This document shows positions 6,084 through 26,444 of a stretch of DNA of 35,375 nucleotides, one piece after another. A program made the position numbers and the translations under genes. The notes below the pieces were generated by a model. That model was not told the DNA's origin. It did no database searches and was given only the letters and a program-made list of their open reading frames with translations. How positions within the stretch are numbered: position 1 is the stretch's first letter; each line of letters opens with the position of its first letter. Source of the stretch: Candidatus Hydrogenedentota bacterium. GTDB taxonomy: Bacteria; Hydrogenedentota; Hydrogenedentia; Hydrogenedentales; CAITNO01. Location: NCBI GenBank assembly GCA_903822375.1, contig CAIJOU010000393.1:1-35375 (forward strand), written 5' to 3'.

Positions 6084-7280
6084 ATGCCCGTCGACGACAA
6101 GCGTTTTCGCGTCCTGGTGGTGGACGACACGGCCGAGAATGTGGATGTCCTTGCCGGCATTCTCACGGAGCACTTTCGTGTCAGCGTCGCCCTCGACGGC
6201 GCCAAGGCGCTGAAGATTGTCCGGAGTGACACCCCCCCCGACCTGATTCTGCTCGACGTCATGATGCCCGAAATGGACGGATACGAGGTCTGCCGCCGCA
6301 TCCGGGAGAACCCGGACACGCGCGACATCCCCGTCATCTTTGTGACGGCGAAGGCGGAAGTCGAGGACGAGACCAGGGGCTTTGAACTGGGCGCCGTTGA
6401 TTACATCACCAAGCCCGTCAGCCCGCCCGTTGTGCTGGCCCGCGTGAGAACCCATCTTCTCCTGAGGGAGTCGCGGTGCCGGATGGAAGACCTGTCGCGG
6501 AAACTGGCGCGGTACCTTCCCCCCCAGGTGTACCGCTCTATTTTTGAGGGCAAACAGGACGCCCGCATCGGAAGCAGCCGCAAGAAGCTTACGGTGTTCA
6601 TGTCCGACATCGTCGGCTTCACCAAGAAGACCGACCGTATGGAGGCCGAAGACCTCACCGCGCTGCTGAACAGCTATCTCAACCGCATGACCAGCATCGT
6701 GCTTGCGCACGGGGGAACCCTGGACAAGTACATTGGCGATGCAATTCTCGTATTCTTCGGCGACCCGGAGTCGAAGGGCGTGAAGGAGGACGCCGTCGCA
6801 TGCACAGCGATGGCACTCGACATGCGCGCGGCCGTCGATGAACTGTGCGTTGACTGGCGGAACCAGGGCCTCTGCAACAGTTTTGAGATCCGGATGGGAA
6901 TCACCACGGGCACCTGCACGGTCGGCAATTTCGGAAGCGAAGAACGGATGGACTACACGATTATCGGAGGGCAGGTGAACCTCGTCAACCGGCTTCAGGG
7001 CGCTGCAGTCCCCGGTGAGATTCTTGTCGGACCCGAAACTTTCGCCCTCGTCGGCGATGTGTTCCAATGTGCCAGGAAGGAGCCGATTCATGTGAAGGGC
7101 TTTGACGAGCCCGTGCAACCCTACCAGGTTGTCGGCGTTCGTTCGTGCGTCGATGACGAAAGCAGGATCGAAGACTCCCGCAAAGGCTTTGCGCTGTCGC
7201 TTGACCCCACGGCAGTCGCCCTGGAAGATCGCAAGTTGGTTGTTGAGAAGCTGCGCGCGGCCATTTCCAGTCTGCATTAG
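6084..7280 (+). CDS. Response regulator with class III adenylate cyclase output
   Basis: The N-terminal REC domain (about residues 6-125) has the acidic pair VVDD, phospho-acceptor D58 (LILLDVMMPEMDG) and the KPVS lysine. A class III nucleotide cyclase domain (about 165-340) follows. It has metal-binding D175 (MSDIVGF) and D219 (KYIGD), the adenine-selecting K215/D290 pair (DKYIGD, MDYT), and the transition-state N299/R303 (VNLVNR). The set is complete and points to ATP, so the product should be cAMP. The ORF track starts at a GTG (6045), but ATG 6084 is preceded by CCGGAGG at ideal spacing and gives a normal REC N-terminus, so I use 6084. The hybrid kinase follows after 206 bp. Its REC closely resembles that of the HD-GYP protein at 12305, suggesting a shared phospho-donor. 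Confidence 0.93.
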   Translation: MPVDDKRFRVLVVDDTAENVDVLAGILTEHFRVSVALDGAKALKIVRSDTPPDLILLDVMMPEMDGYEVCRRIRENPDTRDIPVIFVTAKAEVEDETRGFELGAVDYITKPVSPPVVLARVRTHLLLRESRCRMEDLSRKLARYLPPQVYRSIFEGKQDARIGSSRKKLTVFMSDIVGFTKKTDRMEAEDLTALLNSYLNRMTSIVLAHGGTLDKYIGDAILVFFGDPESKGVKEDAVACTAMALDMRAAVDELCVDWRNQGLCNSFEIRMGITTGTCTVGNFGSEERMDYTIIGGQVNLVNRLQGAAVPGEILVGPETFALVGDVFQCARKEPIHVKGFDEPVQPYQVVGVRSCVDDESRIEDSRKGFALSLDPTAVALEDRKLVVEKLRAAISSLH

Positions 7281-7486
7281 ACCGGGCCCGGTTCGACCTC
7301 CGCGGGGTGACGCATTCCCGTGACACAGACAGGCGGGCCCGTTTGGAGAATTGCAGGGAGCGCGCCGCCCAAAGGCCGTCCAGACGCAATGGCGGCCCTG
7401 TGGCAGAACAATGACGTGCGCGAATTGATGGAATTATCCCGGTCCGCCACCGGGCCGCCGCTTCCCCGGCTTGAAAGGAAGAGTCC

Positions 7487-10400
7487 ATGACCATTGCACG
7501 GCGTTTAATCGTTCTGGTGGCCGTACCCCTGCTGGCCCTCGTTGGCCTGGGCGTCTTTACCCGGACCGAACTGGAGGGGATCGGGACGCGCAGCCAGTTC
7601 ATGGCCGGAACACAAATAGACAGTCTCGCAACTCTGGGCAACCTGTCCCGGACTTTCGCGGAACTGCGGGTGGATGTTGGAAGCTACCTGCTGAACCGTG
7701 ACGAATCTGAACGGGACCGGATTCGGGCGGCGTTCGCCGCCGACAAGGCGGCATTCAGCCAACTGCTCCGCGAGTACGAAAACTCGCAAACCTCGGACGC
7801 GGAGGACCGTCGCCTGCTGCATGAATATCAGAAATCGAGCGCGCAATGGGTCGCCGACGCCGAGAGAATAATGTCCGCAGTCAACGGGGAAGACAAGGAC
7901 GAGGCCGCAGCGGCGACGTTCCGTCTTCGAACAGAATTGGGCAGCCGCCTCAACGCGATATCGGGCGAATGGATTCAGCACAACGAACAGCTGGCCAAGA
8001 ATGTCGGCGGGTTGGTGCTCGCTTCCATCGAAGTTTCCCTGCGGCGAATACTTGTCGCCGTCGGCGGCACTTTGGTTCTGGCGGCACTTCTCGGATGGCT
8101 GACATTCCGCAAGATCGTGCACCCGATCCGCGCGCTGGAAAGCTCCGTCAAATCCATCGCCTGCGGCGAATACGCCAAAGAGGTTCCCTTTGCGAAGGGC
8201 GCCGATGAAATCGGCGATCTGGCGCGCTCGGTGGAGGTGCTCAAGCAGGGCGCGGCGGCAATGGAGGAACAACGGTGGGTCAAGTCCAACGCGGCGAGAC
8301 TCAGCGGCAGTCTGCAGGGTGCCGCCTCGCTGGACGAATTCGGCCGCCAATTGATATCCGGGCTCGTACCCGTGCTCGGGGGCGGTGTCGCCGGCTTCTA
8401 CGCGGTGGAAAACGACAGCGACCGCCTGCGGCGCGTCGCAGGCTACGGGCTGGCCGAAGACGCGCAAACGGCGGACTCCTTCCTGCCGGGCGAGGGACTG
8501 GTCGGCCAGTGCGCGGTGGAGCGCAAGCCGGTCACGCTCGCCAATCTGCCCCCCGCCCACTGCCGAATCGACTCCGGTCTGGGACAGTCCGCACCGACCC
8601 AGGCGGTGGCATGCCCGCTGCTTTCCCGCGACACGCTTCTGGGCGTGGTTGAGTTTGCCTCATTTCGAGCACTGACGGCGAAAGAGCAGGCGCTGCTCGA
8701 CGAACTGCTGCCGGTGGCGGCGATGGGCCTGGAGATTCTCCAGCGCAACCTGCGCACGCAGGAACTCCTGCTGCAAACCCAGGAACAGGCCCGCCAGCTT
8801 GAGGAGCAGACCGAAACGCTGACGCAGTCGCAGGGAGAATTGCTCGCCCGGCAGCACGAACTGACGGCCCAGCGCGCGTACCTGCGCACCAGCGAGGAGC
8901 GCACGCGCCAGATCCTCGACTCCGCGTCGGAGGGCATTTTCGGCATGGACACCGAAGGCTGCGTCACCTTTGTGAATCCGGCGGCGTGCCGCATGCTGGG
9001 GTTCAGCGCGGAGGAACTCGTCTTCCAGTCCGCACACACCCTTATCCACCATCACCGGCCCGACGGCAGCGAGTACCCGAGGGAGGAATGCCCGATGTTT
9101 GCCGCCTACACCCGCGGCGAGGCGAGCAGGATTGACGATGAGTTTCTCTGGCGCAAAGACGGCACGGGATTCTCCGCCGAATACGGCGCCATGCCAATTC
9201 TCAAAGACGGCGAGATTGTCGGCGCCGTCATCAGCTTCAGCGACATCACCGATCGGAAGCGGCAGGAACTGGCGCTGGCGGCCAGCGAACGCAAGATTCG
9301 CAACATTCTGGCCACGTCCAACCAGGGCTTCTGGCTGATTGACAATGACTCCGGCACATTGGATGTGAACGACACCATGTGCAGGATTCTGGGTCGGTCC
9401 CGGGAGGAGATTCTGGGACGGACCCCCCTGGACTTCGCGGATGAGGAGAATCAGCAGATTTTCAAGGAGAACCTCGCAGCGCGCGCCAAGGGCGAGTCCG
9501 GCAGCTACGAGGTCTCCCTCAGCCGGCCGGACGGAACGCAGGTGCCATGCCTGCTCAGCGCAACCCCGCTGTTTGACGACAACGGACAAAAGATCGGGGC
9601 GTTTGCGCAATGCGCCGACATTACGGACATGAAACGGATGGAAAAGGAGGTCCGCCACCAGAACTTTCTTGCCGACCAGGCACTGGATCTCGCCAAGGCC
9701 GGGTACTGGCATGTTCCGCTGGACGGCTCGGGTTGGTACAACTCCTCTGAACGGGTCGTGTGCATCAATGGCGATATCCCAAGCCCCGACAACCGCTACC
9801 ATCTGGACGAGTGGGCGGCCCATGTTGCCGAAGGCGACGAGGCCGCCGCCAAGGCGACCCTGGACAACTTCAACGCCGCCGTGGCGGGAACCATCCCCAT
9901 CTACGACACCATCTACGCCTACAAGCGGCCCGTGGACGGGCGGGTTGTCTGGATTCACGCGTTGGGGCATGTTGTCAGGGACGCGAACGGAAGACCCACC
10001 GACATGTTCGGCGTCAACCAGGACATTACCGACCTCAAACAGCAGGAAGAGGAGCTTCTTCAGGCAAAGAGCGAAGCCGAGGAGGCAACGCTGATGAAGT
10101 CCATGTTCCTGGCGAACATGAGCCACGAGATCCGCACCCCCATGAACGCCGTCATCGGCATGGCGCACCTGGCGCTCAAGACCAATCTCACACCAAAACA
10201 GCGCGACTATGTGAGCAAGGTTCACAGTGCCGGCATATCGCTGCTCGGCATCATCAACGACATTCTTGACTTCTCCAAAATCGAGGCGGGCAAACTGGGC
10301 ATCGAAACCACCGACTTCCGCCTGGACGAGATGCTTACCTCGGTGGTCAACCTCACGGGACAGAAGGCGCACGAAAAGGGCCTCGAATTCCTGATCGACG

Positions 10401-12295
10401 CCCCCTCGTCGGTTCCCCAGTATCTCAGGGGCGACCCGCTGCGGCTGTCGCAGATACTCATCAATCTGCTCGGCAACGCGATCAAGTTCACCGAAAGCGG
10501 GGAGATCCGGCTCAAGATCGAACTGCTTGAGCAGACCGGTGACCGCCTCGAACTGGAGTTCACCGTTCAGGATACGGGCATCGGCATGACGCCCGAGCAG
10601 GCCGCGAAACTCTTCCAGCCCTTCACCCAGGCCGACATGTCCACCACGCGCAAACACGGCGGCACCGGCCTGGGCCTGACCATTTCACGCCGGCTCGTGG
10701 AGTTGATGGGGGGCCGGATCTGGTTCCAAAGCGAGCCCGGATCCGGCAGTTCATTCCACTTCACCGTGAGGGTGGGCCTCGGCGCGGAAAAGGTGGCCAA
10801 ACGGATTATCCCCGGCGTGTTCGACCGCCTCAAAGCGCTCGTGGTGGACGACAATTCGGCCGCACGCGAGATCATGGTGGATTCGCTGGCCCCCGTCGTC
10901 CATCACGTCGATGCGGTCAGTTCCGGCCCCGAAGCCCTCGCCGCCGTCACCGAGCAGGATGCGGGCGAACCCTATGACGTCATCTTCATGGACTGGCGCA
11001 TGCCCGGCATGGACGGGATAAAGACCGCCCGGCTAATCAGGCAAAACACGTCGCTGCGCAAGCGACCCTCCATTATCATGGTCACGGCCTTCGAAAACGA
11101 GGAGATCCGCGAAGAGGCGGAGTCGATTCCGGTGGATGACTTTCTCATCAAACCGGTAACGAAATCCATGCTCGTGGACAGCCTTGTGAACGTTTTCGCG
11201 CCGAACCGTGAGGCGTCGGGCGAGGTCCAGACCGCCGCCCGGGAGCAGGGACTCAGCCTGGGCGGCGCGCGGATCCTCCTTGCGGAAGACAACGACATCA
11301 ACCAGCAAATCGCCATGGAACTGCTGGCGGGCGTGGGGGCCGCCATAGATGTGGCCAACAACGGGCAGGAGGCCGTTGAAAAGCTGTTTGGCGCCGCACA
11401 GCCTTACGACCTCCTCCTCATGGACCTGCAGATGCCCGAAATGGACGGATACCAGGCCACGGCAAAAATCCGTTCCGACAACCGCTTTGCCAAGCTGCCC
11501 ATCATTGCAATGACCGCGCATGCCACGGTCGAAGAACGCCAGCGCTGCCTTGATTCCGGAATGAATGACCACATCTCCAAACCCATCGACCCGGTCGCAA
11601 TGTATGCCACGCTTGAGCGTTACTATCGCGTTGCCGCCCCGCCCGAGAAGTCCCGGCCGGCGGCGCCCGCAGCCTCTCCGGCGTCCCCGCCCGAAGTGCC
11701 CGAGATAGCGGGCCTGGACACCACGGACGGGGTCAGGCGCGTTGCCGGAAACACAAGGCTCTATCTCAGTCTGCTTCGTCGTTTTGCGGCACAGCAGGCT
11801 GACACAACGGTCCGTATTGCCGAACACCTGACACAGGGCGACAGGGCCACCGCCGAGCGCCTCGCCCACACGCTCAAGGGAGTCGCGGGCAACATCGGCG
11901 CGGGCGTGGTGCAATCCCGTGCCTCCGACCTGGAGGCCGCCATACGGGAAGGGCGTCCGGCCGAAACCACCACCCGCTGCCTGGAGGAAGTGCAGCAGGC
12001 GCTGGGCCCGCTCGTCCTGGCCATCAAGAATGCGCTGCCGCCGGAAACAGTCACCCCCGGCCCGGCCGTTGAGATCGACTGGACCGAGGCAAAGCCCCTT
12101 GTTGCACGGCTGGACACGCTGCTCGCGGAATACGATGCCGAGGCTTTGGACATGTTCTCCGCATCCGCAGAGTTGCTCCGCGCCGTTCTGGGCGCGTCGG
12201 CCGCCCCGGTCGAGCATTCGCTGCGCGACTATGACTTCGAAACGGCACTGTCGCTGTTGCGCGAGGCAAGAACCCGCATTCCCGAACTGGGTTAG
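7487..12295 (+). CDS. Large hybrid sensor histidine kinase with two REC domains and Hpt
   Basis: This 1602-aa membrane kinase carries a whole phosphorelay. The order is: TM1 (about 8-25), periplasmic helical sensor region, TM2 (about 187-207), HAMP (208-256), GAF (about 278-418), coiled coil rich in Gln/Glu (about 421-472), PAS1 (475-594), PAS2 (602-723), PAS3 (735-858), HisKA with H880 (MSHEIRTPMN), HATPase_c (about 981-1095, with NLLGNAIKFT and GTGLGLTISRRL), REC1 with D1169, REC2 with D1313, an Ala/Pro linker, and Hpt with H1461 (AHTLKGVAGN). All phospho-sites are intact, so the kinase is probably active. It is followed after 9 bp by the REC-HD-GYP gene, clearly the same operon. Hpt is expected to pass phosphate to the stand-alone REC proteins on either side. 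The stimulus is unknown; one periplasmic and up to four cytoplasmic sensory domains could feed in. Confidence 0.95.
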   Translation: MTIARRLIVLVAVPLLALVGLGVFTRTELEGIGTRSQFMAGTQIDSLATLGNLSRTFAELRVDVGSYLLNRDESERDRIRAAFAADKAAFSQLLREYENSQTSDAEDRRLLHEYQKSSAQWVADAERIMSAVNGEDKDEAAAATFRLRTELGSRLNAISGEWIQHNEQLAKNVGGLVLASIEVSLRRILVAVGGTLVLAALLGWLTFRKIVHPIRALESSVKSIACGEYAKEVPFAKGADEIGDLARSVEVLKQGAAAMEEQRWVKSNAARLSGSLQGAASLDEFGRQLISGLVPVLGGGVAGFYAVENDSDRLRRVAGYGLAEDAQTADSFLPGEGLVGQCAVERKPVTLANLPPAHCRIDSGLGQSAPTQAVACPLLSRDTLLGVVEFASFRALTAKEQALLDELLPVAAMGLEILQRNLRTQELLLQTQEQARQLEEQTETLTQSQGELLARQHELTAQRAYLRTSEERTRQILDSASEGIFGMDTEGCVTFVNPAACRMLGFSAEELVFQSAHTLIHHHRPDGSEYPREECPMFAAYTRGEASRIDDEFLWRKDGTGFSAEYGAMPILKDGEIVGAVISFSDITDRKRQELALAASERKIRNILATSNQGFWLIDNDSGTLDVNDTMCRILGRSREEILGRTPLDFADEENQQIFKENLAARAKGESGSYEVSLSRPDGTQVPCLLSATPLFDDNGQKIGAFAQCADITDMKRMEKEVRHQNFLADQALDLAKAGYWHVPLDGSGWYNSSERVVCINGDIPSPDNRYHLDEWAAHVAEGDEAAAKATLDNFNAAVAGTIPIYDTIYAYKRPVDGRVVWIHALGHVVRDANGRPTDMFGVNQDITDLKQQEEELLQAKSEAEEATLMKSMFLANMSHEIRTPMNAVIGMAHLALKTNLTPKQRDYVSKVHSAGISLLGIINDILDFSKIEAGKLGIETTDFRLDEMLTSVVNLTGQKAHEKGLEFLIDAPSSVPQYLRGDPLRLSQILINLLGNAIKFTESGEIRLKIELLEQTGDRLELEFTVQDTGIGMTPEQAAKLFQPFTQADMSTTRKHGGTGLGLTISRRLVELMGGRIWFQSEPGSGSSFHFTVRVGLGAEKVAKRIIPGVFDRLKALVVDDNSAAREIMVDSLAPVVHHVDAVSSGPEALAAVTEQDAGEPYDVIFMDWRMPGMDGIKTARLIRQNTSLRKRPSIIMVTAFENEEIREEAESIPVDDFLIKPVTKSMLVDSLVNVFAPNREASGEVQTAAREQGLSLGGARILLAEDNDINQQIAMELLAGVGAAIDVANNGQEAVEKLFGAAQPYDLLLMDLQMPEMDGYQATAKIRSDNRFAKLPIIAMTAHATVEERQRCLDSGMNDHISKPIDPVAMYATLERYYRVAAPPEKSRPAAPAASPASPPEVPEIAGLDTTDGVRRVAGNTRLYLSLLRRFAAQQADTTVRIAEHLTQGDRATAERLAHTLKGVAGNIGAGVVQSRASDLEAAIREGRPAETTTRCLEEVQQALGPLVLAIKNALPPETVTPGPAVEIDWTEAKPLVARLDTLLAEYDAEALDMFSASAELLRAVLGASAAPVEHSLRDYDFETALSLLREARTRIPELG

Positions 12296-12304
12296 GGGGG
12301 CGCC

Positions 12305-13462
12305 ATGCTTGAAACCGGCAACGTACTGGAAGCTCCGACCATCCTCGTTGTGGACGACACCCCGGACAATCTCACGGTGATGAGCGGCCTGCTCAAAGAC
12401 CTCTACAGGGTGAAACTCGCCAGTTCGGGGGAACGCGCCCTCAAGATCGCCGTATCCCCCACTCCGCCGGACCTGATACTGCTCGATATCATGATGCCCG
12501 GCATGGACGGCAGCGACGTGTTGCGGCAACTCCGCACAGACACGCGGACTCGAGACATTCCCGTGATCTTTCTTACCGCCAAGTGCGAGGCGGAGGATGA
12601 GCGTTCCGGGCTTGAGTTGGGCGCAGTGGACTACATCACGAAACCCGTCAGTCCGCCCATCGTGCTGGCACGGGTCAAAAACCATCTCGACCTCAAGCGC
12701 ATGCGCGACTTTCTCCGGTCACAGAATGCGTTTCTGGAAAAGGAGGTGGCCAGCCGCACGCAGGAGATCAAGGCCATTCAGGACGTCACCATAGTCGCCC
12801 TGGCATCCCTTGCGGAGACCCGGGACAATGAGACGGGCGGCCACATCCGCCGAACCCAGTTGTATGTGCGCACCCTGGCCTGCAGGCTCCAGAGCCATCC
12901 GCGCTTCGCATGGTTTCTGACAGACGCCACCGTGGACCTCCTTTACAAATCGGCCCCGCTCCACGACATCGGCAAGGTGGGCGTGCCGGACAGCGTGCTG
13001 CTCAAGCCGGGGCGGCTGACCGCTGAAGAGCGGGAGGTCATGAACACGCACACAACGCTCGGCCGCAACAGCATCGAACAGGCCGAAGCGCAGCTCGGCA
13101 TCAGGGTGGGATTCTTGACGATGGCCAAGGAGATTGCACTGTCACATCAGGAGAAGTGGGACGGCAGCGGATACCCGCAGGGTTTGTCCGGTCACCAAAT
13201 CCCCATTTCCGCCCGGCTCATGGCGCTGGCCGATGTTTATGACGCCCTCATATCAAAGCGCCTGTACAAGCCGGCCTTCCCCCATGACAGAGCCCGTGAA
13301 ATCATTGTTGACGGCCGGGGGACCCATTTCGACCCCGATGTTGTCGACGCGTTCCTCGGGGCGGAGAACGAGTTTCGAAGCATCGCCGGCGAGCATGCCG
13401 ACCACGGGCAGGCCTTCGACCCCGCAGAAGGGCCGGATTCAGACCGTGCACTGAACAAATAG
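12305..13462 (+). CDS. REC-HD-GYP cyclic-di-GMP phosphodiesterase
   Basis: This 385-aa response regulator has a REC domain (about 12-130, phospho-acceptor D61 in LLDIMMPGMDG), a short coiled linker, and an HD-GYP domain (about 155-350). The metal-binding HD pair is H220/D221 (HDIGKVGVPD) and the GYP signature is HQEKWDGSGYP at 281-291. The motif is complete, so c-di-GMP hydrolysis to pGpG/GMP is the expected activity. The ATG lies 9 bp after the stop of the hybrid kinase, indicating co-transcription and probably coupled translation. The REC is strikingly like that of the cyclase at 6084 (shared VVDDT, TRDIPVIF, LGAVDYITKPVSPP), as expected for paralogues phosphorylated by the same Hpt. Confidence 0.94.
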   Translation: MLETGNVLEAPTILVVDDTPDNLTVMSGLLKDLYRVKLASSGERALKIAVSPTPPDLILLDIMMPGMDGSDVLRQLRTDTRTRDIPVIFLTAKCEAEDERSGLELGAVDYITKPVSPPIVLARVKNHLDLKRMRDFLRSQNAFLEKEVASRTQEIKAIQDVTIVALASLAETRDNETGGHIRRTQLYVRTLACRLQSHPRFAWFLTDATVDLLYKSAPLHDIGKVGVPDSVLLKPGRLTAEEREVMNTHTTLGRNSIEQAEAQLGIRVGFLTMAKEIALSHQEKWDGSGYPQGLSGHQIPISARLMALADVYDALISKRLYKPAFPHDRAREIIVDGRGTHFDPDVVDAFLGAENEFRSIAGEHADHGQAFDPAEGPDSDRALNK

Positions 13463-13534: not shown

Positions 13535-14509
<975 letters not shown>

Positions 14510-14562
14510 GATAACTCCTTTTCAGATGTTGGTTAACGACTGAATTCGACGCATTGCGAATA

Positions 14563-14578
14563 AGCAAGAGTTGTGCCA
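14563..14578 (-). promoter_or_regulatory. Sigma54 (-24/-12) promoter upstream of the prepilin-like gene
   Basis: Read on the minus strand the sequence is TGGCACAACTCTTGCT, against a consensus of TGGCACGN4TTGCW. The invariant GG and GC are separated by exactly 10 nt, and only the position after TGGCAC differs. The start of transcription would fall near 14552, about 43 nt before the ATG at 14509. The preceding gene on the same strand encodes a GAFTGA-containing sigma54 activator. Confidence 0.85.
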
Positions 14579-14768
14579 TGACTTCGCGTGCCGGCACTCA
14601 GTGTGCCCTCAGGAATACAAAAGGGGGCTGGTGCGAGGGACAGTAAAAGAAGGGATGAAAACAGCCAAGATGACCACACTTTGGTCGAAGCACGCCGCAA
14701 GCCGGCCTTGAATGCTCATTCTTTGCGCGGCGGCGAAGACCCGGAGTTGGTGTGGGAATTCTGCTGTC

Positions 14769-14782
14769 TTGCAGAAATGCAA
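14769..14782. promoter_or_regulatory. Putative activator-binding inverted repeat, site 1
   Basis: TTGCAGAAATGCAA is a TTGC-N6-GCAA inverted repeat about 200 bp upstream of the sigma54 promoter, a typical enhancer distance for NtrC-family regulators. It matches site 2 (read on the opposite strand) at 13 of 14 positions, including the spacer, and both copies are preceded by TC. Confidence 0.7.
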
Positions 14783-14802
14783 CCGTCCGGAGCACCCACC
14801 TC

Positions 14803-14816
14803 TTGCGTTTCTGCAA
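14803..14816. promoter_or_regulatory. Putative activator-binding inverted repeat, site 2
   Basis: On the minus strand this is TTGCAGAAACGCAA. The palindrome extends to CTCTTGC/GCAAGAG (14800-14819). It is centred 34 bp from site 1, close to three helical turns. It begins about 15 bp after the regulator's stop codon, so a hairpin role in the mRNA is an alternative. There is no T-run, and the near-identity to site 1 favours protein binding. The rest of the gap 14510-14833 contains a GTGCCGGCAC palindrome (14588-14597), meaning unknown. Confidence 0.65.
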
Positions 14817-14833
14817 GAGACGGGGAGATCGAC

Positions 14834-16213
14834 TCAGGAAGCGGAGCGTTCAGGATCACGCGCATTGACGCCCAAATCGGCGAGCTTCCGATAGAGCGTG
14901 GACGGGTTAATGTTCATGCGGCGGGCCGCCTCTTCCTTGTTGCCGCCGCACTCGGCAATCACGCGGGACAGAAAGTCGAGTTCAAAGAAACGGACCGCGC
15001 TCCGCAGGTCATCGGGCGCGGATGTGTGCACGGCGTCAAGACCGCCAGACATGTTTTCAGGCAGTTCGGCCGGCGTAATGTATCCGCCGCGGCTCAAAAT
15101 CATGGCGCGTTCGATGACGTTGCGCAGTTCGCGCACGTTGCCCGGCCACGCGTAGGCCAGCAGGCAACGCATGGCGTCCTGGGTGAGGCCAAGACATTGC
15201 CGCTTCAACTCACCGTTCAGTTTCTGCACCAGATGCTCCACCAGCGCGGGGATGTCCGAGCGACGCTCGCGCAGGGGCGGTATCGGGATCTCAAACACGG
15301 CGATTCGGAAATACAGGTCCGTGCGAAAGTGACCGGTTTCAGCAAGTTTGCGCAGGTCTTTGTTTGTGGCGGCAATGATGCGGGCACCGAGTGATTTCAG
15401 CTTGGAACCGCCGACCGGCATGAACTCTTTCTGTTCGAGCACGCGCAGCAGTTTGGCCTGAAGCATAAGGGGCATTTCACCGATCTCGTCGAGAAGGATT
15501 GTGCCGTCACCGGCGAGTTCAAAGAAGCCGGAACGGTCTCCCACGGCGCCTGTGAACGCGCCGCGCACGTGGCCGAACAGTTCACTTTCCAGAAGCGCTT
15601 CCGGAATGCCGGCGCAGTTTATGGCAACGAAGGGTTTGTCTTTCGTGCCGCCCAGGCCATGAACGGCGCGCGCCGCAAGTTCTTTACCCGTGCCTGATTC
15701 ACCCGTAATCAGCACCGTGCTGCGGGTGGCGGCCACCTCGCCGATGTGGCGCATGGTGGCCTTCATGGACTCGCTCTGGCCCACTATGGGCAGCGATTCC
15801 GTGCTGCGCGACACCTGCCGGCGGAGCACCTGCACCTCGCGGGTCAGTTCCTTGAGTTCGGCGAGACGCCGGACTTTGCCGATGACATCCTCAAAGACGA
15901 TGGGCTTCATGACATAGTCGCACGCGCCTTTTCTGAATGCGGTAATCGCCGTGTCCAGGTCGGCATGGGCGGTCAGCATGATCACGCGCAATTCGGGCCT
16001 CAACCGCATCATGCTGTCAAGCGCGTCTATGCCGCTCATGCCGGGCATCATGATGTCACAAAGGACAATGTCGGGGTCCCACTCTTCCAGGATGGCCAAC
16101 CCCAGTTCTCCCGAAGGGGCGGTGCGGCACTCCATGCCCCGCAGGCGCAACAGTCCGGCCAGATCCTCCCGGAACAACTCTTCGTCGTCTATGAGCAAGA
16201 CCTTTGTTGTCAC
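14834..16213 (-). CDS. NtrC/PilR-type sigma54-dependent response regulator
   Basis: This 459-aa regulator has REC (1-120, phospho-acceptor D53, LCDIMMPG), a sigma54-interaction AAA+ domain (about 143-370) and a Fis-type HTH (about 405-450, [20 protein letters not shown]). Walker A is GESGTGKE at 171-178, and the GAFTGA loop that contacts sigma54 is intact at 218-223. When phosphorylated it should bind enhancer DNA and drive open-complex formation by sigma54-RNA polymerase. It overlaps the upstream kinase gene by 4 nt (ATGA), so the two are translationally coupled. Downstream lie two matching inverted repeats and a sigma54 promoter for a prepilin-like gene, closely paralleling PilSR control of pilA in Pseudomonas. 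The cognate target is inferred from this context. Confidence 0.95.
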
Positions 16214-17868
16214 GCAACGTCTCCGTTTGGGGCAGATGGCGAAAGCGACGATGGCTCGGTCACGGGGAGCAGAACGCGAAAGCAGGCGCCGCCTTCGGGA
16301 CCGTTTTCAAAAACGATCCCGCCTCTGTGGCTCGTTATGATCGATTTGGCGATGTTGAGGCCCAGCCCCATCCCATCGGACTTGGACGTGTAAAAGGCGT
16401 CAAACATCTTACTTTTCGCCTCTTCCGTTATGCCTGTTCCCGTGTCGCGAAACGCCACTTCGGCCATCTGTCCGGCAACGCGGGTGCTCACCGTCAGCGT
16501 CCCGCCATCCGGCATGGCCTCAAGCGCGTTCAGCCCGAGATTCAGGAAGACCTGAATCAACTGATCGGACGTCGCTGTCACTGTGGGTGAAACAGTCGCA
16601 AGTTCCATGCCAATGTGGCAGCGCTTGGCGCGTTCGTGAAAGCGAACCACATCCAATGCATCCGACACCAGAGCGTTGACGCTGCACACCGTCGGCTCCA
16701 GGCGCGGCGGATGCGAAAAGCGGGCCACCCCGTAGACAATGCGGGAGATCCGTGAAATCTGCTTCTGCAGAACGTCGAAGCTTTCAGTCCAAAGTGCCGG
16801 GTCGTCATTCTCCTGCATCAGACTGAGCCGGGTGGAAAGGGAGGCTAGCGGATTGCCGATTTCATGCGCCAAACCCGCCGCCACAACCCCCAGCGTCGCC
16901 AGTTTGCTGGAACGCAGCAGTTCGACTTCCTCGCGTTTGCGGTCTGTGATGTCGAGGCCGAAGGAAATCGTGCCCGTTACGCGGCCTCCTTCAATGACTT
17001 CGCTGTTGCTCCATGCAATTTGGCGGTCTTCGCCGGACTTTGTCAGTATTGGCCCTTCCAGATGTTTTGGTATTCCTTTTGTCAGGCTGACCAGAAGTTT
17101 TTCTTTCGCGCCCGGATAACGGTCCGGCGGCATCAGCGTGTCGAACCAGCCGCGCGCCTCAAGCTCTTCGTGGGTGTAGCCGGTGATGCGTTCAGCCGTC
17201 TCGTTGAAGACCCGGAGCTTTCGTGCGTTGTCCAGACCGATCACAATGACATTTGCCGTGTGAATCAGGTTTTCCGCGTAATCGCGCGCCGCCTGCGCGT
17301 TCTGTTCGGCGAGTTTGCGCTGCCGCATTTCCTCAAGCAGGCCCTCGTGCTTTACCTGAAGGCTTGCCCAAGAATCCACCAGGCCGCCCATCGCGTAGTA
17401 AAGCCCCGCGAACAGGAGAAATATGCCGCCGACCAGGGAGAACCATCTCAAGTTGCCGCGGATCAGGGAGTTGTTGCCCACGACCACCCAGTTGTCCAAT
17501 GCACGAACGTCTTTCGTCATGTCCAGTATAACCGTCATGACGAGGAAAATCCCGGCAAGAATAAGGACGTTGCGCACATAGGGTTTTTCCGGCACCGACC
17601 TAATCAACAGTATGGCCGGCATGTTCAAGATTACAACGGCGAACAGTGTCATTACATTCGAGACGAACGGCGGGTGCCAGAACTGGTCAATGAAATGGCC
17701 GGCCAACTCAATGGCAAGGGCGACAACGATGGCAACCGTGATACGCTGTGTCATCTTGGCGGGTGCAAACCATAAAAACGGGGTGCTCCGATGCGGTTCC
17801 GGTGCCTTCGGAGGGACCGGTTCGGGGGTTCGTCCAGTCGGAACAGGTGCTACGTGGTTCGATTGCAT
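16210..17868 (-). CDS. Membrane sensor histidine kinase (PilS/NtrB-like)
   Basis: This 552-aa kinase has a Pro-rich N-terminus and four hydrophobic segments in the first 200 residues (around VAIVVALAIELAGHFI, TLFAVVILNMPAILLI, ILAGIFLVMTVIL and WFSLVGGIFLLFAGLYYA). A PAS domain follows (about 200-320, VIVIGLDNARKLRVFN to FGLDITDRKR). HisKA carries H335 (AGLAHEIGNPLASL), and HATPase_c has its N box (NLGLNALEAM) and G boxes (DTGTGI, GMGLGLNIAKS). All catalytic motifs are present. It has no large periplasmic domain, so sensing is probably within the membrane or through PAS, as in PilS. Its stop overlaps the start of the sigma54 activator, its obvious partner. The ATG is preceded by GAGGGTGA. The 77-bp gap upstream (17869-17945) shows no promoter I can defend. 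Confidence 0.93.
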   Translation of the reverse strand: MQSNHVAPVPTGRTPEPVPPKAPEPHRSTPFLWFAPAKMTQRITVAIVVALAIELAGHFIDQFWHPPFVSNVMTLFAVVILNMPAILLIRSVPEKPYVRNVLILAGIFLVMTVILDMTKDVRALDNWVVVGNNSLIRGNLRWFSLVGGIFLLFAGLYYAMGGLVDSWASLQVKHEGLLEEMRQRKLAEQNAQAARDYAENLIHTANVIVIGLDNARKLRVFNETAERITGYTHEELEARGWFDTLMPPDRYPGAKEKLLVSLTKGIPKHLEGPILTKSGEDRQIAWSNSEVIEGGRVTGTISFGLDITDRKREEVELLRSSKLATLGVVAAGLAHEIGNPLASLSTRLSLMQENDDPALWTESFDVLQKQISRISRIVYGVARFSHPPRLEPTVCSVNALVSDALDVVRFHERAKRCHIGMELATVSPTVTATSDQLIQVFLNLGLNALEAMPDGGTLTVSTRVAGQMAEVAFRDTGTGITEEAKSKMFDAFYTSKSDGMGLGLNIAKSIITSHRGGIVFENGPEGGACFRVLLPVTEPSSLSPSAPNGDVA

Positions 17869-19476: not shown

Positions 19477-20502
19477 CTATCTTTCCTCGATCTCGTCCAG
19501 GCGAACCGGCCGGTTTTCTTCATGAGAGCGGCGGGCGGCGATGCCCAGGGCCACGGCCGCGCGGCCGTCCACGCCGGTGACCGGCGTCGGGGTTCCATCC
19601 AATACCGCATCCACAAAGGCGGCCATCTCCACGAGGAAACTGTCGAGGTAGCGATCCATGAAGAAATTGAGGGGCAGGTCGCGATGCACGGTCGTTGCGT
19701 CGCTGATGACCGCGGTGTTGGGGTGGTTGTTGCTCACCGTCGCACCGCCCGCACTGCCCAGCACCTCCACGCGCTGGTCATAGCCGTAGACCGCCTTGCG
19801 GCTGTTGTCGATGACGCAGAGCAGCCCGCCGGCAAATTTGAGCGTGACCAAAGCGGTATCCAAGTCGCCCGCTGCGCCGATGGCCGGGTCCACCCGCACC
19901 GCACCCGCCGCGTACACCTCCTCCACCTCGTCACCCGCCAGGAAGCGGGCCATGTCGAAGTCGTGGATGGTCATGTCCAGGAACATGCCGCCCGAAACCT
20001 TGACGTACTCAATGGGCGGCGGTCCGGGATCACGGCTGATGATATGGAGCAGATGGGGCTCGCCGATTTCCCCGGCAAGAATGGCCTTGCGCACGCGCGC
20101 AAAATTGGCGTCGAAACGACGGTTGAAACCAATCTGGAGCTTGACGCCCGCCTGCTCCACCGCGTCCAGCGCCGTGTCGATCTCCTTGAGCGTGCGCGCG
20201 ATGGGCTTCTCGCAGAAGATCTGCTTGCCCGCCTTGGCCGCTTCCTCGATCATCGTGGCGTGCAGGTCCGTTGGCGAGCAGATAACCACCGCATCGATGG
20301 CGGGGTCGTTCAGCACTGCAAGATGGTCCGCCTCGACCCGGTCCACGCCGAGCCTTTTACCGAATTCCTGCGCCGCCGCCAGATTCACGTCCGAAATGGC
20401 CACCAAACGCGCGCGGGGAATACGGTAAGCGATATGTTCCCCGTGCACCTTGCCAATGCGCCCAACGCCAATCAGTCCAACATTCAATCGCTGCTGTGTC
20501 AT
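19477..20502 (-). CDS. iolG: myo-Inositol 2-dehydrogenase
   Basis: This 341-aa Gfo/Idh/MocA family enzyme is cytoplasmic with no signal. The NAD-binding motif is LIGVGRIGKVH (10-20), the EKP motif with catalytic K99 is at 98-100 (FCEKPIAR), and the D176-x3-H180 catalytic pair is in LDMTIHDFD. It oxidises myo-inositol to scyllo-inosose, the first step of the inositol pathway. The assignment over other family members rests on length, IolG-like sequence and co-location with iolA, B, C, D and E. GGAG sits 7 nt before the ATG, inside the last codons of the iolE-like gene. The two genes are separated by a single base, so translation is likely coupled. Confidence 0.92.
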   Translation of the reverse strand: MTQQRLNVGLIGVGRIGKVHGEHIAYRIPRARLVAISDVNLAAAQEFGKRLGVDRVEADHLAVLNDPAIDAVVICSPTDLHATMIEEAAKAGKQIFCEKPIARTLKEIDTALDAVEQAGVKLQIGFNRRFDANFARVRKAILAGEIGEPHLLHIISRDPGPPPIEYVKVSGGMFLDMTIHDFDMARFLAGDEVEEVYAAGAVRVDPAIGAAGDLDTALVTLKFAGGLLCVIDNSRKAVYGYDQRVEVLGSAGGATVSNNHPNTAVISDATTVHRDLPLNFFMDRYLDSFLVEMAAFVDAVLDGTPTPVTGVDGRAAVALGIAARRSHEENRPVRLDEIEER

Positions 20503-20503
20503 G

Positions 20504-21433
20504 TTATAACTCCAGTGTCTTCAGATATTCGCGGTTTCTGCGGGCGCTCTCTTTGGGCGCGCCCATGCCCGGCAGCACATCCTGCTCGACAGTTATGAAC
20601 CCATTGTATGCCCGGTCACGAAGCCATTGCGTGGTCCAGGGGAAATCCACGCAGCCTTGGCCCAGTTCGCAGAAGACGCCTTTGCCCACGGACTGGAAAT
20701 AGTCCCAGCCTTCGGCGGTCGACTGCGCGGCCACCTTGGGCTCGCAGTCCTTGTAGTGCATGTGCGTGATGCGGTCGGCAAAACGCTCCAGACCTGCACG
20801 GGTCAGGCTGCCGTCGCGGTCGCCCGCGCCGAAAGCGTAGTGTCCCGTGTCGAAAACAAGGCCCAGCAGTTCGGGACTGGTTCGCTGAAGGAGGGCGTCA
20901 ATCTCTTCGGGCGTCTCCACATAGCCCGCGCAGTGATGGTGGAAGCCGACGGGCAGCCCCGTGGCCTCGCGCACCGCGCGCGCGACGGTCTCCACGCCCT
21001 TGGCGAAGAGGGCCCAGCCCGCGTTGCACAGGCCCATAGCCGCCGTCACGCGCCCGGCGTTTTCCGTGCGCTGGGCAACGCTGCCGTTGTCATCGGCGAG
21101 GATGATCATCGGCGCATGGTCGGGCGACGCCGCACCGGCCAACAGCCGGGCCACACGCACGGCCGCTTCCGCGCCGGCCGCATGCGCGGCCTCGCTGCAA
21201 AAACGGACGGGCACGAAAGCGCCGACCATGGTAATCCCGCGCGGCTCCAGCACGGCGCGCAGCGCGGCGGGTTCGGTGGGCATGAAGCCCCAATCGCCGA
21301 ACTCGGTGCCGCGGTAACCCGTTTCGGCCAGTTCGTCGAGCATGCGCTCGCAGGTGAGCGGCTGGCCGCTCAGCCCTTCGAATTCCAGGCTGCCCCAGGA
21401 GCAGGGCGCATTTCCGACGCGAATCGAAGTCAT
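20504..21433 (-). CDS. iolE: Inosose dehydratase/isomerase family TIM-barrel protein (iolE-like)
   Basis: This is a sugar phosphate isomerase/epimerase-type (AP endonuclease 2-like) TIM barrel of about 309 aa. The N-terminal GNAPCSWG is typical of inosose-processing members. Candidate metal ligands and substrate residues appear in GFHHHCAGY, VFDTGHYAF, HMHYKDCEP and TVEQDVLPG. The expected role is dehydration of 2-keto-myo-inositol to the trihydroxycyclohexane-dione substrate of IolD. An inosose isomerase (IolI/IolH-like) cannot be excluded, but no other IolE candidate is present in the cluster. The ORF track begins at ATG 21442. ATG 21433 has AAGGG at 9 nt, while the first ATG abuts that motif, so 21433 is preferred. 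Confidence 0.82.
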   Translation of the reverse strand: MTSIRVGNAPCSWGSLEFEGLSGQPLTCERMLDELAETGYRGTEFGDWGFMPTEPAALRAVLEPRGITMVGAFVPVRFCSEAAHAAGAEAAVRVARLLAGAASPDHAPMIILADDNGSVAQRTENAGRVTAAMGLCNAGWALFAKGVETVARAVREATGLPVGFHHHCAGYVETPEEIDALLQRTSPELLGLVFDTGHYAFGAGDRDGSLTRAGLERFADRITHMHYKDCEPKVAAQSTAEGWDYFQSVGKGVFCELGQGCVDFPWTTQWLRDRAYNGFITVEQDVLPGMGAPKESARRNREYLKTLEL

Positions 21434-21480
21434 AAGAACCATCCCTTGGGTCCGAACCTATCTCGCCGACATTGCCCACC

Positions 21481-21589
21481 CCGTCATTGCGAGGAGGGCT
21501 CCAGCCCGACGTGGCAACCTCTTGAAACCACAACACGACATCCGGGTCAGCGCGAGCAAGAGATTGCTTCGCTGCGCTCGCAATGACGG
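21481..21589. repeat. 109-bp palindromic dispersed repeat with 13-bp termini
   Basis: CCGTCATTGCGAG (21481-21493) is repeated exactly, inverted, as CTCGCAATGACGG (21577-21589). An internal pair, GGCAACCTCTTG and CAAGAGATTGC, also matches with one difference. This GTCATTGCGAG..CTCGCAATGAC pattern is a type of palindrome I recognise as occurring in many copies in unrelated bacterial genomes. It lies in the 277-bp gap between iolA and iolE. Confidence 0.75.
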
Positions 21590-21597
21590 ATTAACCT

Positions 21598-21648
21598 CGT
21601 TCCCAAGTTGTGCTTGGGAACGCACTTATCCGCGAAGTTGCACTTCGC
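21598..21648. repeat. REP-like twin hairpin
   Basis: A perfect 10-bp stem, CGTTCCCAAG/CTTGGGAACG (21598-21622, 5-nt loop), is followed after 9 nt by GCGAAGT-TGC-ACTTCGC (21632-21648). The GTTCCCAAG hairpin is a familiar dispersed bacterial repeat. It directly follows the 109-bp palindrome. The pair could attenuate or stabilise the iol transcript. Confidence 0.7.
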
Positions 21649-21710
21649 AAGCGCAATAATGTGAACGCGGCTGGCCGCCGCGTCCACTTTGACGCGCAGT
21701 TATCGCTTTC

Positions 21711-23183
21711 CTAGAAATGCCGGCTCCATTCCTTGGGCCAGCGCTCGACGACCACTTTCGTCTCGGTGAAGAACTCCACGGCGTGCTCGGCCTGCCCATG
21801 GAGATCGCCGAAGAAACTGTCGGCCCAGCCGCTGAAGGGGAAGAAGGCCATGGGCGCGGCAACGCCGATGTTGACGCCGATGTTCCCGGCCCGTGCTTCG
21901 GTCCTGAACCGGCGGGCGGCGGCGCCGCTGGCGGTGAATATGCAGGCCATGTTGCCGTAGGCCCGATCATTCACCATGGCGATGCCCTCTTCCAGCGTCT
22001 CGGCGTGCATCAGGCTGAACACGGGGCCGAAGATCTCCGTCCGGGCGATTTCGCCGTGGTGCGACACGTCGTCCAGCAGGGTCGGGAAGACGAAATACCC
22101 CTTCTCGAAACCCGGCACCTTTTGCCCGCGCCCGTCCACCAGTGCCCGTGCGCCCTCGGCCTCGGCAACGCCGATGAGGCGCTCGATGCGGGCCTTGCTC
22201 TCGGCGCTGATCACGGCGCCCGTCTCCGCGTTCTCGTCCAACCCGTAACCCACCCGGCGCGCGCGGGTCACCGCACTAAAACATTCCCTGAATTCATCGC
22301 GCGCCCCGCCGATGGTGATACCCGTTGAAAGCGCAAGACAGCGCTGGCCCGCGCAGCCGTAGGCCGAATCGGCCAAAATGCGCGTGGCTGTTTCCATGTC
22401 GGCATCGGGCATAATCAGCACCGGATTCTTGGCACCGCCCTGGCACTGCGCCCGCTTGCCGTTGGCCGCAGCGCGCGCGTAGATGGCCCGCGCGGCGGCG
22501 GTGGAGCCGACCATGCTGATCGCGCGTATTTCCGGATGGTCCAGAATGGCGTCGACGGTGGCTTTGCCGCCGTTCACCAGTTGCAGCACGCCCGGGGGCA
22601 GGCCAAGCTGGTCCACCAGTTCAAACACGCGCTGCTGGGTCACAGGACATTTCTCGCTCGGCTTCACGATGAAGCAGTTGCCGGTGGCGAGCGCGTAGGG
22701 CAGGAACCAGAACGGGATCATGGCCGGGAAATTGAAGGGCGCGATCATCGCCGCCACGCCGATGGGCTGGCGGAACATGTGCTCGTCTATGCCCTGCGCT
22801 ATATCCTCGTTGTTGCGCCCCTGCATGAGCATCGGGGTCCCGCAGGCCACCTCGACGTTCTCGATGGCGCGGCGCAGTTCCCCAAGGCTTTCCTTGTGGG
22901 TCTTGCCGCATTCCTCGGTGCAGGAACGGGCCAGCGCATCCAGGTTATCCTCCAGCAACTGTTTCAGCTTGAAGAGATACTGGATGCGGTCGGGCGCGGG
23001 AACCCTGCGCCAGGCCGGAAACGCCGCCGCCGCCGCGCGGGCCGCCAAGTCCACCTCTTCCCCGGGGGAAAGCGGCGCGTCCACGATGTGCTCCGCGGTG
23101 CCGGGGTTGATGACGGGCAGGCATTCTGCCGCCCCGGAAGCGACCCACTGCCCGTTAATGTAATTCAACAAACGCTTGGCCAT
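21711..23183 (-). CDS. iolA: CoA-acylating (methyl)malonate-semialdehyde dehydrogenase
   Basis: This 490-aa enzyme of the ALDH superfamily is of the MMSDH subgroup. It has the N-terminal YINGQWV, the [22 protein letters not shown] segment typical of MMSDH (PFNFP near residue 150), KPSEKCP, the GS..G-type VGSTAAAR, and catalytic C282 in AGQRCLA. MMSDHs lack the general-base Glu of hydrolytic ALDHs, having QGGAKN where others have E-L-GG-K, as seen here ([10 protein letters not shown]). It converts malonate semialdehyde to acetyl-CoA and CO2, the last inositol-specific step, and may also act in valine/thymine breakdown (MmsA). It starts with ATG at 23183 behind a weak GGGAAAG. It lies 60 bp after iolD, and that gap holds a 7-bp tandem array. 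Confidence 0.93.
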
Positions 23184-23214
23184 AGTTTTCTTTCCCGCGT
23201 ACTTCTTTGACTTT

Positions 23215-23242
23215 CTAGACCCTAGACCCCAGACCCTAAACC
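23215..23242. repeat. 7-bp tandem array (CTAGACC-like, four units)
   Basis: CTAGACC, CTAGACC, CCAGACC and CTAAACC lie head to tail, immediately after the iolD stop (23244-23246 on the minus strand). They leave only about 30 bp before iolA. Confidence 0.75.
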
Positions 23243-23243
23243 C

Positions 23244-25112
23244 TCAAAAGTAGTACCGTTCCTTGGCGCGCATCTCTTCCCATCCTTTACGGGCTTCACG
23301 CACCGACTCCATTTCACTGACTTCCGCCACGGGCACATCCCACCAACTGTCGTAGCCGGGCACGTTTACATAGCGGTCGTTTTGGATGTAAATCACCGTG
23401 GTCTTGTCGATCGTTTCCGCCGTCTTGATGGCCGCCGCAAAGTCGTCATAAGTCTTGCACTCGATGACATGCGCGCCGAGGCTGCGGGCGTTGGCCGCCA
23501 AGTCCACCGGAAGCACCTCGACGTTCTCGCCAACCGCGTCGCCGGGAAGCACGTCGTCCTGCGGGTAGACATAGCGCGTCGCAAAGCCTTCCTGGCCGAG
23601 CGAGCGGCTCAGCGAGCCGATGCTCTTGTATCCGAAGTTGTCAAAGATGATGATGGTCAGCTTAAAGCCTTCCTGGATCGACGTGACGATTTCGGAATTC
23701 ATCATGAGGTAGCCGCCGTCACCCTGCATGATGTACACGTCGCGGTCGGGTGCGGCCATCTTGACGCCCAGCCCGCCGGCAATCTCGTAGCCCATGCAGC
23801 TGTAGCCGTATTCGAGGTGGTAGTTCTTCGGGTGGCGCGAGCGCCACAGCTTGTGCAGGTCGCCCGGCAGCGAACCCGACGCGCACACCATGATGCTCTC
23901 GGGCTTGCCAATCTCGTTTACCGCGCCGACCAGTTCGCCCTGGCTGGTCAGCGGCGTGTTGCGGATGGCGTAAATGCGGTCCACCTCGGCTTCCCAGGCG
24001 TCGTGCAGCTCGCGCGCCTTGGCCTGGTAGGCGGCGTCGGTCTGGGAGCCGGCAAGCGCCTCGCCCAAATCCTCGAGCACGGCGCGGGCATCGCCCAGCA
24101 CCGGCATGGCGGAGTGCTTGTTCGCGTCAAATTCGGCCACGTTGATATTGATGAAGCGCACGTTTGGATTCTGGAACTGGGTCTTGCTGGCGGTGGTGAA
24201 ATCGCTGTAGCGCGTGCCGATGCCGATGACCAGGTCCGCCTCGAGCGCGATGGCGTTGGCTGCGCTGGTTCCCGTCACGCCGACGGCGCCCAGATTCAGC
24301 GGATGGTCATAACGCAGGCTGCCCTTGCCGGCCATCGTCTCGCCGACGGGAATGCCGGTCTTTTCGACGAACGCCTTGAGTGCGTCGCAGGCGTCGCTGT
24401 AGATCACGCCGCCACCCGCCACGATCATCGGGCGTTTCGCGCCGCGAATCCACTCGGCCGCGCGGGCGAGCGCCGCCTTGTCGGCACGGACGCGCGGTAT
24501 ATGCCAGACCCGCTTGTTGAAAAAGTCTTCCGGATAGTCATAGGCCTCGGCCTGCACGTCCTGCGGCAGCGCCAGGGTCACCGCACCCGTATCGGCGGGG
24601 CTGGTCAGCACGCGCATCGCCTCGGGCAGCGCGCAGAGAATCTGGTCGGGCCGGTTGATGCGGTCCCAGTAACGGCTGACCGGCTTGAAGCAGTCGTTGA
24701 CGGAAATGTCCTGGCTGTGCTCCGATTCGAGCTGCTGAAGCACCGGAGCCACGTTGCGACGCGCGAAGATATCGCCCGGCATGAGCAGCACGGGCAGCCG
24801 GTTGACGGTCGCTCCCGCCGCGCCGGTAATCATGTTGGTTGCGCCCGGACCGATCGAGGACACGCAGGCAAAGGTCTGCAGGCGGTTCTTCATCTTGGCG
24901 TAGCCCGCCGCCGCATGCACCATGGCCTGTTCGTTGCGGATCTGGCGATAGCGGAAATCGGGGTTCTGCTGCAGTGCCTGCCCGATGCCCGCCACGCAGC
25001 CGTGGCCGAAGATGCCGAAGCATCCGGCAAAGAGCGGCTGCTCCACCCCGTCCCTCTCCGAGTATTGATTCTTCAGAAACAGAATCACTGCCTGCGCCAT
25101 TGTCATTCGCAT
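23244..25112 (-). CDS. iolD: 3D-(3,5/4)-trihydroxycyclohexane-1,2-dione acylhydrolase
   Basis: This thiamine-diphosphate enzyme of 622 aa opens the inositol ring to 5-deoxy-glucuronate. The N-terminal ThDP pyrimidine-binding domain has catalytic E61 (RNEQAMVHAAAGYAK). The central domain carries RADKAALARAAEWI and IVAGGGVIYSD. The C-terminal domain has the GDG..NF ThDP-Mg motif (MQGDGGYLMMNSEIV to FDNFGY, about residues 460-490). The IolD-specific opening FGIFGHGCVAGIGQAL is clear. The ORF track starts at 25145, but AGGAGGT (25119-25125) stands 6 nt before the ATG at 25112 (MRMTMAQAV), which I take as the true start. It is separated from iolC by a 265-bp repeat-rich spacer, unusually long for this operon. 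Confidence 0.95.
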   Translation of the reverse strand: MRMTMAQAVILFLKNQYSERDGVEQPLFAGCFGIFGHGCVAGIGQALQQNPDFRYRQIRNEQAMVHAAAGYAKMKNRLQTFACVSSIGPGATNMITGAAGATVNRLPVLLMPGDIFARRNVAPVLQQLESEHSQDISVNDCFKPVSRYWDRINRPDQILCALPEAMRVLTSPADTGAVTLALPQDVQAEAYDYPEDFFNKRVWHIPRVRADKAALARAAEWIRGAKRPMIVAGGGVIYSDACDALKAFVEKTGIPVGETMAGKGSLRYDHPLNLGAVGVTGTSAANAIALEADLVIGIGTRYSDFTTASKTQFQNPNVRFININVAEFDANKHSAMPVLGDARAVLEDLGEALAGSQTDAAYQAKARELHDAWEAEVDRIYAIRNTPLTSQGELVGAVNEIGKPESIMVCASGSLPGDLHKLWRSRHPKNYHLEYGYSCMGYEIAGGLGVKMAAPDRDVYIMQGDGGYLMMNSEIVTSIQEGFKLTIIIFDNFGYKSIGSLSRSLGQEGFATRYVYPQDDVLPGDAVGENVEVLPVDLAANARSLGAHVIECKTYDDFAAAIKTAETIDKTTVIYIQNDRYVNVPGYDSWWDVPVAEVSEMESVREARKGWEEMRAKERYYF

Positions 25113-25118
25113 GGACCG

Positions 25119-25125
25119 ACCTCCT
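25119..25125 (-). promoter_or_regulatory. Ribosome-binding site deciding the iolD start
   Basis: AGGAGGT on the minus strand lies 6 nt upstream of the ATG at 25112. The longer ORF start at 25145 lies upstream of this site and would add 11 residues not expected in the family. Confidence 0.85.
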
Positions 25126-25189
25126 GGTGTTTTGTCCCTGGCCATCGCCGCAATTAACCGAAGTTGAAGTTCAAGAACGTTCCGGAGCC

Positions 25190-25355
25190 CCGCCCCGAAG
25201 GGCGGCAGACAACCCGGCTATTATGCCGAACGGGCGGGCCAAAATCATACCATTTCCGAGGCTTGGGAATGGCTCCGTTTTGGGCTTGGGCCGCAGAATC
25301 TTGGAGTGCGGCGTCGTTCCGCCGCACTCCACAGGGGCCGCACGTTCACGTGCGG
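25190..25355. repeat. Cluster of GC-rich hairpins in the iolC-iolD spacer
   Basis: The hairpins in order are CCGCCC-CGAA-GGGCGG (25190-25205), a CCATTTCC/GGGAATGG pair flanked by CCAAAA/TTTTGG, a perfect 11-bp stem GGAGTGCGGCG/CGCCGCACTCC (25303-25330), and CCGCACGT-TC-ACGTGCGG (25338-25355). The GGAGTGCGG core recurs in the palindrome at 33759-33858. This fills most of the 265-bp gap and looks like inserted dispersed-repeat DNA. Confidence 0.65.
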
Positions 25356-25377
25356 TGCAGATTCTCCAAATCGAACC

Positions 25378-26406: not shown

Positions 26407-26444
26407 AAGGGGCTCCCCTCGGCACACGACTTCATTCGGAAATG

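Follow-up and report, generated by a model that had tools for sequence, protein, structure and literature searches.

A probable sigma54 circuit dedicated to a single DUF1559 prepilin gene in Hydrogenedentota

DUF1559 proteins form a huge, poorly understood pilin-like family that is present in dozens of copies per genome. In the window, the whole 35,375-nucleotide stretch of a Candidatus Hydrogenedentota contig analyzed here, one such gene lies beyond the genes of a histidine kinase and a sigma54 regulator, which raises the questions of whether this pair controls it and how far any such control reaches into the family. On the minus strand the order is histidine kinase, sigma54 regulator, two dyads, a -24/-12 promoter and the DUF1559 prepilin gene, and each element of this layout, which had been predicted from the DNA letters, was found in its place:

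16210 to 17868, minus strand: sensor histidine kinase, 552 amino acids, with about four predicted transmembrane (TM) segments, PAS, HisKA and HATPase_c
14834 to 16213, minus strand: sigma54-dependent response regulator, 459 amino acids, with a receiver, an AAA+ domain carrying GAFTGA and a Fis-type helix-turn-helix (NPSTLYRK)
14801 to 14818, minus strand: enhancer-like site 1, TCTTGCAGAAACGCAAGA, with one mismatch to TCTTGCA-N4-TGCAAGA; the congeners keep the site
14767 to 14784, minus strand: enhancer-like site 2, GGTTGCATTTCTGCAAGA, with the core TTGCA-TTTC-TGCAA at 14782 to 14769
14563 to 14578, minus strand: sigma54 -24/-12 promoter, TGGCACAACTCTTGCT (GG, 10 nt, GC)
14552, minus strand: predicted transcription start, 12 nt past the C at -12, placed by the promoter spacing
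14515 to 14520, minus strand: ribosome-binding site AAGGAG, read in the sequence
13535 to 14509, minus strand: DUF1559 prepilin, 324 amino acids, with N_methyl, the N-terminal part of DUF1559 and a C-terminal H-X9-DG motif

Both signaling proteins are intact, with the GAFTGA motif (present in the translation, as predicted), Walker A, the receiver aspartate and the HisKA histidine all in place, and the GTG start of the regulator overlaps the kinase stop codon as GTGA. The regulator matches Pfam Response_reg, Sigma54_activat and HTH_8; this domain set with GAFTGA, together with rpoN in the genome and the -24/-12 promoter of the target gene, is that of a sigma54-dependent NtrC-type response regulator. 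The prepilin scores above the cut-off for both N_methyl (45.3 bits) and DUF1559 (PF07596, 37.1 bits) and carries the H-X9-DG motif. The inverted repeats had been described as 34 bp apart, and their starts are indeed separated by that distance; they are oriented oppositely and have the palindrome arms in common, the core of site 2 reading TTGCATTTCTGCAA on the minus strand (14782-14769) and TTGCAGAAATGCAA on the plus strand. The GG-10 nt-GC spacing, also correctly noted, puts the transcription start at 14552 and leaves the predicted 43-nt leader before the prepilin ATG at 14509. The prepilin gene forms a single-gene unit, since the gene that follows it (HD-GYP, 12305-13462, plus strand) is convergent. 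The promoter is the sole perfect consensus match within the window, which means little by itself since a scan of the genome returned 10 such places against 6 for a reversed control. The list from that scan includes a PII-like (glnB) gene with, by eye, a putative ammonium transporter gene 1 kb further on. PII-like and ammonium transporter genes are textbook sigma54 targets, and rpoN is present in all three genus genomes.

The arrangement is conserved. Two Candidatus Hydrogenedentes metagenome-assembled genomes (MAGs) served as congeners, AlinenLipids_bin-3554 (G001) and Loclat_bin-18389 (G002), whose regulators are 81 and 86% identical to that of the window. In both, two dyads follow straight after the regulator gene, and then come a promoter (TGGCACAAGTCTTGCT and TGGCATCACTCTTGCT, respectively) and a DUF1559 gene; site 2 is degenerate in each, with TGCG replacing TGCAA. 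In G001 the first set is followed immediately by another one, made up of a dyad pair, a promoter and a DUF1559 gene, and a search of 68 genomes of the phylum with the dyad-pair pattern yielded one more pair in G002 (contig C678), likewise in front of a DUF1559 gene with a sigma54 promoter. These two additional pairs were found by pattern alone and sit away from the end of any regulator gene. Dyads, promoter and DUF1559 gene recur in G067, a member of another family, where the promoter is imperfect (TGGCACCCTCTTTGCG). Conservation of the repeats at orthologous loci, one of the conditions set for the original prediction, thus holds in both congeners and in G067. This supports the predicted self-contained circuit, in which sigma54 and twin enhancer-like sites serve a DUF1559 prepilin gene. 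What we see are intact proteins, sites, promoter and a single-gene target, the whole arrangement being conserved. On C678 the dyad-controlled gene adjoins another DUF1559 gene (L194, at about 1850) with its own near-perfect sigma54 promoter, TGGCACAACTTTTGCT, and no recognizable dyads, which may share its neighbor's enhancers.

What members share is the palindrome TCTTGCA-N4-TGCAAGA; its center differs among them. The first half-site GCA is identical in 27 of the 27 listed sites, a constancy that is partly selection, since the arms were the criterion by which the sites had been chosen. The motif originally put forward for the regulon, TTGCAGAAAYGCAA, fails: its exact matches in the 6.25-Mb host genome are the two known sites only, and among relatives the central AGAAAY is not kept and only the palindrome arms matter. 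A scan of the three genus genomes (about 21 Mb) for the 18-bp palindrome with at most one mismatch returned six places, five of them at DUF1559 genes and the sixth (C739) inside another reading frame, where about 1.7 were expected by chance and a reversed control gave none. If DUF1559 upstream regions make up about 0.4% of the genomes, five of six has a rough chance probability of P ~4e-12, a value to be read with the motif having been derived from four of the five places and the fifth found by pattern. Neither simulated sequence (1.49 Mb) nor the surroundings of 68 other activators, used as control loci (734 kb), contained a dyad pair of the quality seen in the window. Pattern matches beyond the genus and G067, in G036, G018, G042, G051, G021, G060 and G020 were few and off consensus, and we took them as chance or repeats; in G051 (C3, C8, C10 and C135) about 45 bp of TTGC/GCAA palindromes recur nearly identically and look like a dispersed repeat.

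Taken together, and as far as sequence comparison can tell, these data make it likely that one DUF1559 prepilin gene has a sigma54 circuit of its own. By analogy with NtrC-family biology, the membrane kinase would respond to a signal and phosphorylate the co-encoded NtrC/AtoC-type regulator. As the sites and the regulator clade strictly co-occur, we infer that the regulator binds the two TCTTGCA-N4-TGCAAGA palindromes, which are separated by about three turns of the helix. The DNA would then loop across about 200 bp to sigma54-RNA polymerase at the TGGCAC-N5-TTGCT promoter, where the regulator ATPase would open the promoter and allow the prepilin to be made. Among members the distance from site 2 to the promoter ranges from 123 to 279 bp, which suits looping rather than a rigid contact.

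How far does this control reach? There are 60 DUF1559 matches in the host genome and 54 and 55 in the congeners, and of 52 readable DUF1559 genes in the host only the window's own has the dyad pair upstream. One other gene of the host genome (C648; L028, G000) has a good sigma54 promoter alone, TGGCACGGATGTTGCG, 49 nt before its start and without dyads; it is perhaps served by another activator. We therefore rejected general sigma54 control of DUF1559 genes: dyad control is special to one branch of the family and not a general rule. The expectation that the locus would provide a regulon motif for finding further members holds to the extent that five DUF1559 genes are found in the genus, but the yield is not large, with 1 of 52 upstream regions in the host genome. 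A wider regulon, in which the prepilin gene is just one of several genes under the regulator, is rather unlikely. It would accommodate the further DUF1559 genes with sites or promoter in G001 and G002, and the fragmented host assembly (6.25 Mb, 83% complete, 967 contigs) may lack other targets and sites; however, the pattern scan found no other dyad pair in the host genome, the genus-wide motif marks DUF1559 genes only, save for the one place inside another reading frame, and the Cyc2-like gene that is the apparent target in some relatives was not detected in the genus.

The regulator and its sites also occur outside the genus. Regulators 50-66% identical to that of the window are encoded in members of further Hydrogenedentota families (G067, G031, G040 and G023) and, at 50-60% identity in those that carry another phylum's label, in MAGs labeled Planctomycetota (L090, L091 and L094), KSB1 (L095), Bacteroidetes (L093), Ignavibacteria (L097), Krumholzibacteriota (L098) and bacterium BMS3Abin03 (L096). 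In our tree the window regulator and these relatives form one clade (support 100/98). Within it, high-quality dyad pairs are present in the window genus, G067, L090, L091, L094 and L095; weaker pairs, 33 bp apart, were recognized by eye in L093, L096 and L098, and a single dyad in L097. The targets differ. Behind the control region of L090, L091, L094, G040 and G023 lies a gene whose product opens with a sequence like AIPTFARKYQTSCATCHEAFPRLNG; the L090 product has no match in Pfam, NCBIfam or PDB. The Cyc2 signature consists of AXPXFAR[Q/K][T/Y], CXXCH and PXL, followed by an outer-membrane barrel (PMC8406198); the AIPTFARKYQTSCATCHEAFPRLNG-type targets fit the three motifs and are therefore probably fused cytochrome-porins. 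L093, L096 and L097 have as their target a cytochrome c followed by a predicted outer-membrane protein, and L098 has a protein with CXXCH; the contigs of L095, of G031 and of a second G002 locus end before the target. The inspected operons with a Cyc2-like target continue with cupredoxin, Fer4_5 and cytochrome c proteins. The G023-type Cyc2-like gene was detected in 2 of the 68 Hydrogenedentota genomes searched, G040 and G023, and in neither the window genus nor G067. A short gene precedes it in these two, between promoter and Cyc2-like gene (MRHIQNISSS... in L082 of G040; MKHIETISRA... in L084 of G023). The Ignavibacteria locus L097 carries a second Cyc2-like gene, AIPSFSRQTNLPCSTCH (6929-8263), about 3 kb from the regulator.

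The DUF1559-wired members, that is, the genus and G067, with G031 whose contig ends early, form a clade (100/99) inside the cytochrome-wired group. The simplest reading of this tree is that one Hydrogenedentota clade exchanged its cytochrome target for DUF1559 in a single step while retaining the DNA code, the direction of the switch being read from one tree and few loci; the regulator clade and its DNA code would then be older than the prepilin wiring. In the genus, the RegB/PilS-like membrane sensor of the kinase would have been replaced as well.

The kinases suggest this second change. That of the window combines an AtoS-like transmitter with a membrane part common to congeners only, which differs from that of the relatives and lacks the GGxxNP motif. 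A simple hydropathy count gives the relatives' kinases 3-7 TM segments; their membrane part contains conserved histidines, and they carry GG(I/L)ENP(L/M), or GGAANPF in G067. These motifs resemble the quinone-binding heptad of RegB, GGXXNPF (PMC8191878), and RegB/RegA regulates iron-oxidation genes in Acidithiobacillus (PMC5506826). In contrast to RegB/RegA, however, the kinase partner here is a sigma54 activator rather than RegA, and the RegB-type heptad in a six-TM domain is absent from the window kinase itself. A more specific scenario, which we regard as tentative and rather unlikely, is that a quinone-sensing regulator of outer-membrane electron-transfer proteins, its DNA code preserved across phyla, was rewired to a DUF1559 prepilin, and that the prepilin serves the physiology of the cytochrome-porin it replaced, in contact or electron exchange with extracellular surfaces.

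The pair had originally been called PilSR-like, and PilS-PilR of Pseudomonas indeed offers a parallel as two-component, sigma54-dependent control of a type IV prepilin-like gene, pilA (PMC6058289). A true PilSR system, in which the kinase senses membrane pilin and the regulator controls the major type IV pilus pilin, would explain a prepilin target with sigma54, and some relatives' kinases weakly match 6TM_PilS (L096 above the cut-off, L095 and L098 just below). We nevertheless consider it improbable and rejected PilSR membership, as the kinase membrane domain and the DNA sites both fail. Neither the window kinase nor the congener kinases match Pfam 6TM_PilS, and they have about four TM segments, whereas PilS has six (PMC6058289); no PilR-type TGT-N10/11-A(C/G)A site was found in 14510-14833 at the target promoter; the target is a DUF1559 protein, not PilA; the regulator has AtoC as its top curated match, under the AtoC cut-off; and regulators of the same clade elsewhere lie upstream of cytochrome genes.

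The NtrC/AtoC-family systems that work with sigma54 (AtoSC, NtrBC and ZraSR) share with the locus the domain order, GAFTGA and a -24/-12 promoter preceded by paired enhancers. Among curated families the pair matches AtoC and AtoS best, but its proteins score under every curated cut-off (regulator to AtoC, 425.5 bits against 714; kinase to AtoS, 226.8 bits against 646), so AtoSC membership is not supported at these cut-offs, and the target and DNA code (TCTTGCA-N4-TGCAAGA) are different. The LuxO enhancers of Vibrionaceae (TTGCAWWWTGCAA) likewise pair TTGCA/TGCAA half-sites upstream of sigma54 promoters, but their center is 3 bp as opposed to 4 bp here and the LuxO targets are small RNAs (PMC10162802); nothing indicates that the window regulator is a LuxO, its curated LuxO score falling far below the cut-off.

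An unrelated dimeric repressor or activator could instead bind the dyads, with the neighboring regulator acting elsewhere. We judge this very improbable: the sites accompany the regulator clade across phyla and are absent at the 68 other activator loci, and the code appears to drift together with the protein, the dyads of G040 and G023 reading TTCGC..GCGAA (TTCGCA for the half-site) where the recognition helix is HHSTLYRK and NLSTLYRK, respectively, as against N(P/A/S)STLYRK in others, although these are two cases. It is scarcely probable that the dyads act at the RNA level, as hairpins that terminate or process the transcript behind the regulator gene, for although site 1 could fold a 6-7 bp stem just past the regulator stop codon, no T run follows the stem, pairs front target promoters away from the regulator end in L090 (2.2 kb off), G001 and G002 C678, and base identity is kept beyond complementarity, with several sites having arms broken on one side.

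The dedicated circuit would give one DUF1559 branch its own regulator, a precise DNA code and a route to an on-switch in the laboratory. Responses to salt, cold and heat have been described for some DUF1559 genes of Rhodopirellula, and our literature search returned no paper combining DUF1559 and sigma54. A 2025 computational survey of sigma54 regulons reports COG2165 as enriched in Planctomycetia and so gives an earlier hint that sigma54 may control pseudopilin-like genes in a related group, but the passages available to us mention no regulator, enhancer or DUF1559 gene and no Hydrogenedentota (PMC12316311). Sigma54 control of pilins is already known from PilSR; the unexpected part is the target switch, and a conserved code with a changed target would be a clean example of regulatory rewiring. 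The same code flags Cyc2-like cytochrome-porin operons in MAGs of several phyla, and a limited literature search found no description of how these operons are regulated.

Further features were noted in passing. In the host genome (G000:C407; L043 and L044) two perfect sigma54 motifs lie 2.3 kb apart, each shortly before an anti-sigma-type ATPase-like gene. The window itself carries, on the minus strand, an inositol-catabolism-like cluster (19477-29175) with Gfo/Idh/MocA, an IolE-like TIM barrel, aldehyde dehydrogenase, a TPP enzyme, a PfkB kinase, KduI/IolB and a class-II aldolase, within which a HepT-like protein is encoded (26445-26927, minus strand). A 1141-amino acid protein (29252-32677, minus strand) combines F5/8 type C with HZS_alpha (the middle domain of hydrazine synthase alpha), weakly matches a cytochrome, and is probably not a hydrazine synthase. 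On the plus strand, 7487-13462 encodes a 1602-amino acid hybrid kinase (PAS, GAF, two receivers and Hpt) followed by the HD-GYP response regulator that converges with the prepilin gene.
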